In this document: positions 8,024-36,898 of the stretch, piece after piece
Position numbering within the stretch: position 1 is the first letter of the stretch
Layout: the number at the start of each line of letters is the position of its first letter
Virus record (IMG/VR): IMGVR_UViG_3300029811_000049
Location: 1 to 38,541 of that record
Strand: one strand, 5' to 3'
Origin: a virus
DNA: 38,541 nt
Notes under the pieces: model-generated
Databases searched by the model: none
What the model was told of the DNA's origin: nothing
Seen by the model: only the letters and a program-made list of their open reading frames with translations
Program-made: the position numbers and the translations under genes

Positions 8024-9922
8024 ATGATTAAGAATAGAAATTGTGATTGGGACCCTGCGTTTCAAGTGGAAACAGGAACAGCCAATCCTTCAACGGGTTT
8101 AGTTGAAGGAATGATTTTTTATCGTTCTGATACTAATAAGTTAATGTCCTATGATGGCTCGTCTTGGGCGGCTGTTGAGGGGGCTGGCGGTGGTTCTACT
8201 ACTTGGGTTGGTTTGACTGACACAGCTGGTGCAATTACTGCGAAAGGTTTAGTTAAAGGTAATGACGCTGGAAGTGCTTTGGATTTTGTTGCTTTAACGG
8301 ATGCCAAGATTTTAGTAGGTAATGGTTCAGATATTCCAACAGCGGTAGCCGTAACTGGTGATGTTGCTTTGGCTAATAATGGTGGAACAACAGTAACGGA
8401 TTTGACTATTACCAGTGAAGCTGCTGGTGATGTTCTTTACTTTGACGGAACGAACTGGAAAAGATTAGCAAAAGATACTGGTAAGTTCTTGAAGTCAGGT
8501 GCTTCAGCTGTTTCTTGGGATGCTGTATCCGTAGCTGTAGCTGATAAGCTATCTGATACCTTTGATATTGAAGGTGGAACTTATGACCTTACGGTTGATA
8601 TTACTACTCAGACAACTTCGGCTCCGACTGTTACTTTGCCTGATTTAGGTGGTGTGGCTCAAGAATGGGTATTTTCTAAGAAAGCACAAACATTAGAAAA
8701 CAAAACTTTAACAACTCCAAAGATTGTTACGACTGGTTATATTGCTGATGGTGGCGGAGATGAATTATTGAAATTTGTTGAAAGCGGAACGCCTGTGAAC
8801 TTTGTTCAGATTACTTCTGGTGATGCTGGAGCTCCTGGAAGCGTTGAAGTCGCTTCTGAGGGTGATGACACAAATGTTGATTTACTCTTAGTTTCCAAAG
8901 GTAGTGGTGTTGTGAAAGTGGACGGTAGTGAAGCGGTAACTCTTACTGGGTCGCAAGCGTTAAGCAATAAAACTTTAACTGCTCCAATTATTGCGACTGG
9001 TGGAATTATTGCTGATGCTGCTGGTGATGAGTATTTGAAGTTTGTAGAAGCCACGACCCCAGTTAGTTATGTTCAGATTACATCTGGGGATACTGGTGTT
9101 GCTCCCGAAGTTGCTTCGGCTGGTGAAACCAATCTTGATTTAGCATTGGTTGCGGCTGGTTCAGGTGTTGTGAAAGCTGATGGCGTTGAAGTAGCGACTA
9201 TTTCTGGAACTCAGACATTAACCAATAAGACCTTAACTTCTCCAAATGTCAATGAGGCTGTTGCTTTAACTTCAACTGCTACCGAATTGAATGTTCTTGA
9301 CGGAATTTTATCTTCTACGGCTGAATTAAATATCCTTGATGGTGTTACTGCTTCTGCGGCTGAACTGAATATCATGGACGGAGTTAGTGCTACCTATGAC
9401 GAAATCAATCTCTTAGAAGGAAGTATTGCTGGAACAGCTGTGGCAAGTAAAGCATTAACATTAGGAGCAAATAAGAATACTGATACGCTTGTTATTGCGG
9501 ATGGTGGTTTGTATCTTGGTTCTGCTGCTGGAACAGCTGTTACGGCTACTGCAGCTGAATTGAATTTGACTGACGGAATTGATACATCTGGTTCGTTAAT
9601 GTGTTTCCAAGATGCTGCTATTGGACACGCTGACGCAGCTGCTGCTCTAATGACTTTGCCTGCTAATTCCAAAATTCACTTCATTGAATTTTTGATTACT
9701 ACCGCTTGGACTGGAGGCACAACAAGTTATGATTTAGGACTTGGAGCTAATGCTGATGCTTTATGTGATGGAACTGATATGAGTGCGGTTGGTAAAAAAA
9801 GTGGAACGCCTCCAACATCAACGATTGCTTTGTGGGACGATACTGGTGCGGATACTGCGGTAACTGGGACAGATGTTGATAGCGGAGTTGGTGCTGGTAA
9901 AGTGCGTATTTACTATACCTAA
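8024..9922 (+). CDS. Repeat-rich fibre or head-decoration protein
   Basis: 632 residues, low in Cys and aromatic residues, rich in Ala, Gly, Thr and Asp. Two long repeats of about 85-89 residues begin at NKTLT near residues 226 and 315, with a third NKTLT near 400. Next come short repeats ELNVLDG, ELNILDG, ELNIMDG and EINLLEG at about 13-residue spacing (420-465), plus ELNLTDG near 512. Such repeats are common in phage fibres. The C-terminal ~100 residues are not repetitive and may bind the receptor or the virion. AGGAGG precedes the ATG. Its place right after the coat gene leaves head decoration possible. Confidence 0.65.
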   Translation: MIKNRNCDWDPAFQVETGTANPSTGLVEGMIFYRSDTNKLMSYDGSSWAAVEGAGGGSTTWVGLTDTAGAITAKGLVKGNDAGSALDFVALTDAKILVGNGSDIPTAVAVTGDVALANNGGTTVTDLTITSEAAGDVLYFDGTNWKRLAKDTGKFLKSGASAVSWDAVSVAVADKLSDTFDIEGGTYDLTVDITTQTTSAPTVTLPDLGGVAQEWVFSKKAQTLENKTLTTPKIVTTGYIADGGGDELLKFVESGTPVNFVQITSGDAGAPGSVEVASEGDDTNVDLLLVSKGSGVVKVDGSEAVTLTGSQALSNKTLTAPIIATGGIIADAAGDEYLKFVEATTPVSYVQITSGDTGVAPEVASAGETNLDLALVAAGSGVVKADGVEVATISGTQTLTNKTLTSPNVNEAVALTSTATELNVLDGILSSTAELNILDGVTASAAELNIMDGVSATYDEINLLEGSIAGTAVASKALTLGANKNTDTLVIADGGLYLGSAAGTAVTATAAELNLTDGIDTSGSLMCFQDAAIGHADAAAALMTLPANSKIHFIEFLITTAWTGGTTSYDLGLGANADALCDGTDMSAVGKKSGTPPTSTIALWDDTGADTAVTGTDVDSGVGAGKVRIYYT

Positions 9923-9941: not shown

Positions 9942-10004
9942 TAGCTGGATACTCAGGCTTTGTAGTCATTCTGCTTAGCCTGAATCCAGAATGACATTCA
10001 GCTA
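9942..10004 (+). promoter_or_regulatory. Compound inverted repeat with competing stems
   Basis: TCAGGCT (9953-9959) pairs with AGCCTGA (9977-9983), extended by TGGAT/ATCCA outside a 2-base bulge. GTCATTCTG (9965-9973), in the loop of that stem, pairs perfectly with CAGAATGAC (9987-9995). TAGCTG (9942-9947) pairs with CAGCTA (9999-10004). The first two stems cannot both form simply, so this is either a pseudoknot or a switch between structures in the gap between two structural genes. Confidence 0.5.
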
Positions 10005-29415: not shown

Positions 29416-30153
29416 TTACATTGATAATGTTTTAACTTGACCTTTAGTTAATTTTTCCAAATTTTCGTCAATAAATTTTCCTACTGTTTCTAAAGTCCAT
29501 TTAAAATCTGCATTCTCTTCAAGATAATTCATAACTTCTCCTATTCTTTTAACTGAATAACCTTTTAATAATTGAGCTGCTCTAATGTTCCTTGTTATAA
29601 AACTCTTCTTAGTATCCTTATTAAAGGTCTTTATACTCTTCTTATAAGCATATAAGTATATTATCTTAATATCTTTTTTAGGTTCTTCTCTTATAAGTGA
29701 TAAATCTATTCTTATAGATTTATCTCTCTTCTTCTTATTTATATCATTCTTGTTTATAGTGTCGCTTCTGTATCGCTTCTGTATCGCTTCTAAATCGCTT
29801 TTTGTGTCGCTTTTCTTATAATAATAATTACTCATTGTTTGAAAAAAATGATACCTATTCACAGTTATTATCATTCCTCTTGTTGTTTTTCGTGTCGCTA
29901 TCATTGTCGCTGATTTTAGGTATCTTATACAGTGGTCAATAGAATTCCTCTTTGCTCCTGTCGCTTCTTGGATTTCTCTATAAGTGATAAAATTATCTCC
30001 TCTTTTGAATAGTTTATTATTTTTATGGTTCATTTGATTAACAATATAAAACCAAATTTTAAACCATTTATCAGGTTTCCAGTAAAAAATATCACTGTGT
30101 ATTGTTTGTCTTGCCCAAATAGTAGCACCACCTTTAATCTTTTTTTTTGCCAT
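29416..30153 (-). CDS. Winged-helix replication initiator protein
   Basis: 245 residues. The N-terminal ~115 residues form a winged-helix domain like those of phage and plasmid replisome organisers (IWARQTIHSDIFYWKPDKWF, then REIQEATGAKRNSIDHCIRY as recognition helix and GMIITVNRYHFFQ as wing). A Lys/Arg-rich linker follows, and the C-terminal part resembles a DnaD-like helical tail. It would bind the origin and recruit host proteins. Start at 30153: an upstream in-frame ATG is inside a hairpin and rejected. Expression seems governed by the attenuator-like leader upstream. Confidence 0.75.
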   Translation of the reverse strand: MAKKKIKGGATIWARQTIHSDIFYWKPDKWFKIWFYIVNQMNHKNNKLFKRGDNFITYREIQEATGAKRNSIDHCIRYLKSATMIATRKTTRGMIITVNRYHFFQTMSNYYYKKSDTKSDLEAIQKRYRSDTINKNDINKKKRDKSIRIDLSLIREEPKKDIKIIYLYAYKKSIKTFNKDTKKSFITRNIRAAQLLKGYSVKRIGEVMNYLEENADFKWTLETVGKFIDENLEKLTKGQVKTLSM

Positions 30154-30184
30154 AATTATTTCATAATTATTAGCGGAAATAAAA

Positions 30185-30223
30185 GAGGCGGCTACTTTTA
30201 CCACAAAGCAATTTAGCCGCCTC
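30185..30223 (-). terminator. Intrinsic terminator in the initiator leader (attenuator)
   Basis: On the minus strand GAGGCGGCTA pairs perfectly with TAGCCGCCTC around a 19-base loop and is followed by TTTTATTT. It lies between the initiator promoter and its ATG, so it can stop transcription before the gene. Its loop contains TTGCTTTGTGG, complementary to an upstream leader segment (next entry). Confidence 0.75.
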
Positions 30224-30261
30224 ATTTATTTCAACTATTAAATTAAATATTTGCTTTGTGG
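30201..30261 (-). promoter_or_regulatory. Antiterminator pairing in the initiator leader
   Basis: CCACAAAGCAA, transcribed from 30261-30251, is perfectly complementary to TTGCTTTGTGG (30211-30201) in the loop of the terminator hairpin. Pairing of these two encloses the 5' arm of the terminator stem. This is the layout of transcription attenuation used for plasmid copy control. Confidence 0.6.
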
Positions 30262-30275
30262 ATTTCATTATCTTG

Positions 30276-30303
30276 ATTTTATCAAATCAAATAACTATGT
30301 CAA
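30276..30303 (-). promoter_or_regulatory. Promoter of the replication initiator
   Basis: Minus strand TTGACA (30303-30298), spacer 16 bp, TAAAAT (30281-30276). The preceding bases are CACTTGACA, shared with three other leftward promoters. Transcription would start near 30269 and run through the attenuator. Confidence 0.6.
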
Positions 30304-30344: not shown

Positions 30345-30461
30345 TCATAAAACACGATATGTCATTTCAATTGCTACAATTATTTGAGGTATTACCCAAC
30401 ACATCCAAGCTAAGAATATTAAAACTCCGATTTTTAGGATTAAGAAATTATTTATTTTCAT
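30345..30461 (-). CDS. 38-residue membrane peptide
   Basis: An open frame of 38 codons ending in TGA. Residues 5-28 are almost wholly hydrophobic (NFLILKIGVLIFLAWMCWV), with a Lys at either side of the start; a single membrane segment is clear. No Shine-Dalgarno; the ATG is in AT-rich DNA next to a large inverted repeat. It could be a real small membrane protein or a chance frame. Confidence 0.4.
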   Translation of the reverse strand: MKINNFLILKIGVLIFLAWMCWVIPQIIVAIEMTYRVL

Positions 30462-30467
30462 TTTTGT

Positions 30468-30606
30468 ATTAGTTATTCTTAGCTGGATAGGATAGGAGCG
30501 TTTATATGGGGATAGATAACAAAATAACTAACCCACTGATGGAAACTTCCTATCCAACGCCTCCAGCAAGCGTTAATTAACACCCCACCAGCTAAGAATA
30601 ACTAAT
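30468..30606 (-). repeat. Large cloverleaf-like structure, 19-bp perfect outer stem
   Basis: ATTAGTTATTCTTAGCTGG (30468-30486) is the exact reverse complement of 30588-30606. Inside, TGGATAGGA (30484-30492) pairs with TCCTATCCA (30548-30556), and GGAGCGTT with AACGCCTCC save one bulge. The outer stem shares TGG with the inner one. A structured non-coding RNA, a terminator complex or a DNA site are all possible. It lies in a gap of about 390 bases with only a 38-residue frame and the initiator promoter. Confidence 0.65.
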
Positions 30607-35935: not shown

Positions 35936-36898
35936 TTAGTTACTCAATAGATTGGCTATTGCCTTTGCTATTGGTATGTGTGTTTGTAATTGGACAAAAT
36001 ACCATTGTCCGTTTGGATTTATTTCAAAAAAGATATATTTTCCTTCTTTTGTTACTGCCATATCAAGGCATCCAAAACGGAGATTCATTTTCTTCATGAA
36101 AAGTTTGATTTTACTGCAAATTTCACTTGGAAGTTCCGTTGGGGTTAGCTCTACTTCCGTATCGTTCAGTTTAGGTTTCTTTCGCCAGTCAAGGGAAGTT
36201 ATGCTATCCATTTGGGAATCAATCTTTACGGGAAAGATATTATCTCCAACCACAGTTATTCTTAACTCATATTTTTTCTCAACGACTTCTTGAAAAATGG
36301 AGGGAGATAACTTAACCGATTCAATGGCTTTAAGATACTCTTCAGTCACCCTGTTAGTATAGATAACCTTGTCGTTCATAGGGGATGCTCTAAGCATTTT
36401 AACGATAATCCCGTTGTGTTGGCGATGGAAATCTACTACTCGCTTTGGGTTAGAACTAATCAGGGTATCGGGGACATTAAATCCCGATTCTATTGCCGTA
36501 TTTAACTGGTAAATCTTGTCTTCTGCTTTCATTACGGTCCAGGGATTGTCTATCCACCTTTTATGGGCAAACATCGTCCAGATAGCTTCTTGCATTGCAT
36601 AGAATTGCCTTGTAATAAAGTGCCTGTATTCAACTGGTTCAAATCTTCTAATCGGTTCTGGCATTATCGGTTTCAGATTCCAAATGGTTGAAAATTGTTC
36701 GGCATTGTATTCTTTTCCGTCTATTTCCATAACATAAGAAGACGAACCGTTCTTGATAATGTAATTCAGATATTCTCCCTCTAAACATTTATCTTGTTTA
36801 AAGATAACTGCTTTTTCTCCGTTCTTTTCCATTTCTTGCCTAACTAAATCAAACGCTTCAAGCTCCCACAAATTAGAATTTCCTATCGCTAGTATCAT
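35936..36898 (-). CDS. ATP-grasp peptide maturase, graspetide/microviridin type
   Basis: 320 residues. Motifs typical of the MvdD/MvdC-like peptide ligases are in order: KAEDKIYQLNTAIESGFNVP (near 124-143), DTLISSNP, IVKMLRAS, VIYTNRV, a central FQEVVEKKYELRITVVG (about 207-223), KIDSQM, a DWR element and the metal/ATP site FFEINPNGQW (near 290-300). These enzymes use ATP to join Asp/Glu side chains of a precursor peptide to Ser/Thr (esters) or Lys (amides). The usual WYRR motif is replaced by IWNLKP. The gene is more GC-rich than the early genes, and its Shine-Dalgarno (AAAGGAGG) is locked in a hairpin. Substrate: probably the 36-residue peptide just upstream. Confidence 0.85.
   Translation of the reverse strand: MILAIGNSNLWELEAFDLVRQEMEKNGEKAVIFKQDKCLEGEYLNYIIKNGSSSYVMEIDGKEYNAEQFSTIWNLKPIMPEPIRRFEPVEYRHFITRQFYAMQEAIWTMFAHKRWIDNPWTVMKAEDKIYQLNTAIESGFNVPDTLISSNPKRVVDFHRQHNGIIVKMLRASPMNDKVIYTNRVTEEYLKAIESVKLSPSIFQEVVEKKYELRITVVGDNIFPVKIDSQMDSITSLDWRKKPKLNDTEVELTPTELPSEICSKIKLFMKKMNLRFGCLDMAVTKEGKYIFFEINPNGQWYFVQLQTHIPIAKAIANLLSN

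Follow-up and report, generated by a model that had tools for sequence, protein, structure and literature searches.

A probable RNA switch in the leader of the replication initiator gene of a group of phages

The window, that is, the whole stretch of DNA analyzed here, is a 38,541-base IMG/VR record of a tailed phage. Its plus strand carries the genes for terminase, portal, head and tail, and the replication and DNA-modification half occupies the minus strand. The latter includes the gene of a replication initiator, for which position 30153 was taken as the start instead of 30225, as in the ORF listing, because its homologues begin M..KIxGGATIWARQT. When 18 kb of the window was searched as DNA against phage records, there was no match, and tblastn of the initiator against phages and plasmids gave weak staphylococcal DnaD-like matches and nothing else. 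Patescibacteria were considered as the host and rejected, as initiator relatives were found in 2 of 380 genomes of the phylum, too few to claim. The sequence ahead of the initiator had been predicted to hold a promoter, an 11-base segment and a hairpin with the exact complement of that segment in its loop, and all of these elements were found on the minus strand. The features of the region are as follows.

30276..30303, minus strand: sigma-70 type promoter, TTGACA-16-TG.TAAAAT
30170..30268, minus strand: leader ORF of 32 codons, near-leaderless, with a frame kept open across leaders and a codon usage that is not gene-like
30251..30261, minus strand: element a, CCACAAAGCAA, which spans +8 to +18 of the leader ORF and would form the 5' arm of the antiterminator
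30214..30223, minus strand: element b, GAGGCGGCTA, 5' arm of the terminator hairpin, the pairing running outward to about 30228
30201..30211, minus strand: element a', TTGCTTTGTGG, exactly complementary to a and located in the loop of the terminator
30185..30194, minus strand: element b', TAGCCGCCTC, 3' arm of the terminator hairpin, the pairing running outward to about 30180
30177..30184, minus strand: T-rich tract, TTTTATTT, after the hairpin
29416..30153, minus strand: replication initiator/DnaD-like helicase loader (O-like initiator), 245 aa, phrog_2514, E 6e-8

Read along the minus strand, the order is promoter, a, b, a' and b' (two interlocked pairs), T-rich tract and initiator. The promoter matches the consensus at 11 of 12 positions, with TTGACA at 30303-30298, a 16-nt spacer containing TG and TAAAAT at 30281-30276. 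It is the top-scoring site within 6 kb, where weaker sites are no commoner than in shuffles. The stem b:b' is lengthened outward by AAATAAA/TTTTATT and closes a 19-nt loop that contains a'. This hairpin and the T-rich tract resemble an intrinsic terminator, which stands between the leader promoter and the first gene, 26 nt ahead of the initiator start. The genes upstream of the leader promoter are oriented in the same way as the leader.

The window leader folded more stably than its shuffles (z of -5.0 and -5.6), and no shuffle equalled it. When the terminator was kept fixed in 1000 dinucleotide shuffles, none matched the a:a' pairing (p about 0.001). The element a' has a single upstream partner in the leader. 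A second exact copy of a lies at 9825 of the window, within a coding gene; in the contigs of the other leaders tested, a search for copies of a that might act in trans found none besides a and a'. An Rfam covariance search of the window and 17 relatives at the gathering threshold detected only tRNA and tmRNA.

Three scans of viral contigs and one of genomes for relatives of the initiator yielded 41 distinct loci (designated by L numbers), the window included. The a-b-a'-b'-T layout was located directly upstream of the initiator at 14 loci, picked by score or by reading, and L088, L121 and L029 were added as leaders by reading and a terminator scan. Four more leaders are placed at the head of the operon: that of L012 precedes a DnaB-like helicase gene and that of L028 an HNH-like gene (both genes named by reading), and those of L007 and L077 are one gene upstream of the initiator. 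We modelled 21 leaders. Most are well supported, and three or four are weak; for L017, L032, L046 and L088 the a:a' that came out of the automatic partition was poor or different. Such a leader is absent from about half of the initiator relatives. Mapped on the initiator tree, its presence requires 12 changes and is clustered no more than in shuffles, so that inheritance by descent looks no different on the tree from repeated loss or gain.

The leaders of the relatives have the layout in common and unrelated sequences. In the pair L067 and L083 (the contig position of L068), a is preserved in its outer part, its inner part differs and so does b, and everything is still paired. These two leaders share GTAGCACC beside a small hairpin within the terminator loop, the sole conserved loop sequence seen. 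A pattern search for further leaders of the L067/L083 type returned 80 stretches, among which the real ones were the two known, and a DnaB-linked search for additional leaders returned the known locus and no other. A variant layout was noted by reading in L088 (2890-2992), where a third a-like segment, AACCCGTCAA, follows CTCGTCAA and TTGACGGGTT just ahead of the initiator ATG and a second helix, CTCCACCAACC/GGTTGGTGGG, ends beyond the T tract.

The pairing of a with a' was compared with chance in two ways. Terminator-like hairpins were selected blind to a, and one was found within 110 nt upstream of the initiator at 17 of the 41 loci. The a:a' pairing of these 17 exceeded that of shuffles (combined p = 8e-9) and was also better than that of 127 terminator-like hairpins elsewhere in the same loci (p = 4e-6). 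A scan of both strands for the full architecture, with a promoter score of at least 9, a:a' in the partial transcript and a terminator, gave 19 matches across the initiator loci (476 kb); 17 were sense-strand matches upstream of the initiator. One match was obtained in 656 kb of control sequence (78 phage contigs, the remainder of the 80 stretches from the pattern search). Locus L078 has a weak T tract and was left out of the modelled leaders, yet it is one of the 17 scan matches. As judged by these comparisons, the a:a'/terminator layout before the initiator is not due to chance. The prediction of an attenuator-like leader gained strong support from about twenty phage contigs of differing sequence, in which promoter, a, b, a', b' and T tract precede the initiator or its operon.

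Computed folding of transcripts cut before b' gave a:a' in 18 of the 21 leaders, and that of full-length leaders gave b:b' in 20 of 21. The predicted order is that a:a' forms first and b:b' wins later; the predicted structure of the terminated RNA leaves a unpaired and puts a' in the loop. Mutually exclusive pairing, as originally proposed, was borne out in part: the computations point to kinetic and steric exclusion, but the segments share no bases, so their sequence does not make the pairings exclusive. Arranged as a-b-a'-b', they follow the order of an H-type pseudoknot, and in the window such a fold is just feasible, with a 6-nt loop, about 31 A to span and about 39 A available in A-form geometry. 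Most leaders, the window's among them, could form a pseudoknot of the core helices, but not L014, L016, L007, L029 and L028, in which one molecule cannot hold the full a:a' and b:b' helices together. According to these models the two helices could be exclusive by timing and sterics in some members and able to coexist in others. Since the pseudoknot is sterically allowed in most members including the window, a:a' need not, on the modelled geometry, block termination.

A short reading frame runs through the leader. In the window its ATG is at 30268, seven bases after the -10 box, and its stop is 16 nt ahead of the initiator ATG. The first ATG is 4 to 27 bases past the -10 box in 19 of the 21 leaders, and L028 and L029 have no ATG near the promoter. 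In 14 of 19 leaders the frame runs without a stop at least to about 20 nt from the end of b', against 4.7 expected from shuffles (z 5.4), and stops per codon amount to 0.024 in the leader frame versus 0.058 and 0.086 in the other frames. Codon usage of the leader ORFs was not gene-like (frame 0 best in 3 of 15) and gave no support for a conserved peptide, and the leader peptides differ between relatives; any role would therefore lie in the act of translation. Only short ORFs are present in four leaders (L016, L017, L032 and L121). Together with the two leaders that have no ATG near the promoter, these suggest that translation may not be essential in all. Relative to the leader AUG, element a falls between about -12 and +38, mostly at +2 to +20, and covers the first codons.

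The initiators directly behind a leader, that of the window included, have no Shine-Dalgarno site, whereas initiators without a leader tend to have one (median duplex energy +0.7 versus -4.3, p = 2e-5). In directly upstream leaders with an open frame, the ORF ends at most about 26 nt from the initiator start. The nearness of the ORF end and the missing Shine-Dalgarno site point to translational coupling, and the initiator is probably translated by coupling to the leader ORF. What the sequence and its relatives show directly is the promoter, the interlocked pairing, the terminator, the open leader frame, the location of a at the ORF start and the lack of a Shine-Dalgarno site.

Since about twenty distant relatives retain the layout with quite different letters, it is very probable that the leader acts as a genuine on/off switch for replication of the phage DNA, close to known attenuators and not identical to them. 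We are fairly confident that these leaders are attenuators in the broad sense. As for the mechanism, we lean slightly towards a transcription attenuator that acts in cis on the replication operon, with a:a' as an early antiterminator and the outcome set by translation of the leader. In this mechanism, a would pair with a' once a' exits the polymerase, trap b in a loop and delay the terminator b:b', and read-through would be favoured. If something occupied a (the simplest candidate is a ribosome that initiates at the leader AUG, with a as the first codons), a' would be free, b:b' would form at the T tract and transcription would end before the initiator. A ribosome keeping pace with the polymerase would instead cover b and prevent termination, and the same ribosome would reach the leader stop beside the initiator start. 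That read-through is regulated, and in which direction the ribosome acts, are inferences.

Leader-ORF attenuators, phage leader RNAs and attenuated initiators are each known separately. The C4 antisense RNA of P1 and P7 is a phage RNA with self-complementary segments, which it has in common with the leader. It has the Rfam accession RF01695 and is listed in PMC2864571; the phage leader has no Rfam match at the gathering threshold. In pyrBI of E. coli (leader peptide pyrL) the terminator is likewise inside a short leader ORF, and ribosomes can suppress such terminators, a coupled ribosome preventing the hairpin (PMC5021804, PMC4824070). The phage leader differs from it in adding the a:a' helix, interlocked with the terminator and with the start of the leader ORF as its 5' arm, and in standing before phage replication genes. 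The original prediction called such control unusual in a phage, a statement that needs qualifying: P4 CI RNA and Gifsy-1 IsrK are phage leader-RNA precedents, neither with this anatomy (PMC4825925). In P4 the leader has self-complementary segments, and its premature termination keeps the replication genes off; CI RNA causes termination by pairing with seqA and seqC of the transcript to which it belongs (PMC4825925). Processing releases CI RNA from the leader, and it has pairing copies on either side, whereas here a and a' alone occur (with a third copy in L088 only) and the terminator is of the intrinsic type; P4-type complementary segments flanking the regulator on both sides were not found in the window leader, where a' has its one upstream partner. 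From a single promoter Gifsy-1 produces a terminated leader and a read-through mRNA, on which the short IsrK acts, and translation of the downstream gene is coupled to a small ORF (PMC4825925). The short IsrK RNA activates translation of an antirepressor, whereas in the phage leader the ORF overlaps the terminator and the target is the replication initiator. In the open-access literature searched we found no description of an interlocked antiterminator, with its 5' arm at the start of a leader ORF, that precedes phage replication genes and is conserved in about twenty divergent contigs.

The main rival to attenuation in cis is a trans-acting terminated leader, of the kind described for P4 and IsrK. 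The loop element a' of a terminated RNA would pair with a of nascent transcripts, block the antiterminator and so generate more terminated RNA, giving a sensor of copy number or superinfection immunity that requires no separate antisense promoter. The predicted terminated RNA, with a' in the loop and a unpaired, would suit such a role, as would the five leaders whose helices cannot coexist, in which a' would be free to act in trans, and both precedents have been described (PMC4825925). Proximity, however, favours pairing in cis, and the conserved open leader frame would be left unexplained; we regard action in trans as rather unlikely. Equally doubtful is its extension to a self-silencing class of leader RNA common to many phages, in which the terminator loop pairs with the start region of new leaders, causing termination and hiding the leader start codon. 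If this were true, each genome copy would lower the replication of all copies without an antisense promoter or a repressor.

It is also conceivable, with a lower probability still, that the interlocked helices form one stable pseudoknot, which would serve as a small RNA regulator or be bound by a protein or ligand, the initiator for example. The H-type order and loop lengths that permit the core helix in most members, including the window, are consistent with this. However, loop and stem lengths vary widely, the full helices do not allow such a pseudoknot in some members, no conserved loop sequence was seen except GTAGCACC in L067 and L083, and the Rfam search at the gathering threshold gave no match.

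The original prediction had drawn a comparison with copy control of the pIP501 type, where antisense RNA transcribed from the other strand binds the leader and brings about termination. The plasmid RNAIII/repR system resembles the phage leader in having attenuation before a replication initiator (PMC4981023), but here the pairing is within the leader and no antisense promoter was found: there is no plus-strand promoter near or across the leader, and the best antisense promoter scores in the family do not exceed those of random stretches (p = 0.77). This kind of control is not supported, and we consider it very improbable. An ordinary terminator of the upstream genes with a chance 11-base match is hardly credible: a lone match of 11 bases would be weak and the upstream genes read in the same direction, but the promoter sits between these genes and the hairpin, the complementarity recurs across relatives, and both the blind-terminator and full-architecture tests contradict it.

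If attenuation in cis is true, a group of uncultivated phages would have a recurrent means of timing the onset of replication, by RNA folding and a tiny ORF, not by a repressor. The leader would then be a defined, testable switch beyond the few phage models (P4, P1 and Gifsy-1). Because the layout is kept while the letters change completely, standard RNA-family searches miss the leader, and a layout-based search could reveal more such switches.

DnaA-box-like 9-mers (TTATCCACA, at most one change) were also noted in front of the leader promoters. Nine occur in 2.9 kb versus 1.2 expected (p = 4e-6), the pattern being counted in the same sequences in which it was first noticed and the p value thus not coming from an independent set. 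They are present in 8 of the 21 leaders (L006, L014, L017, L020, L021, L083, L121 and L029), mostly just upstream of the -35 box; upstream of the window leader promoter, none was found at the same threshold. These sites could mark a replication origin or control of the promoter by DnaA. The gap upstream of the initiator promoter in the window contains an exact 19-nt inverted repeat, ATTAGTTATTCTTAGCTGG, at 30468-30486 and 30588-30606, 101 nt apart, and an additional copy of AGCTAAGAATA at 30408. Elsewhere in the window, at 9946-9996 on the plus strand between two genes of the structural region, the interlocked pairs CTGGATaCTCAGGCT/AGCCTGAaTCCAG and GTCATTCTG/CAGAATGAC follow each other in the order x-y-x'-y', as in the leader; by reading, there is no T tract, and the second pair spans the ATG at 9991. 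For the phage gene at 35936-36898 on the minus strand, the MvdD pre-ATP-grasp domain gave a weak match that missed the Pfam cut-off, and the gene also weakly resembles phrog_2599 (ribosomal protein S6 modification-like). It is possible that its product is a peptide-modifying enzyme.
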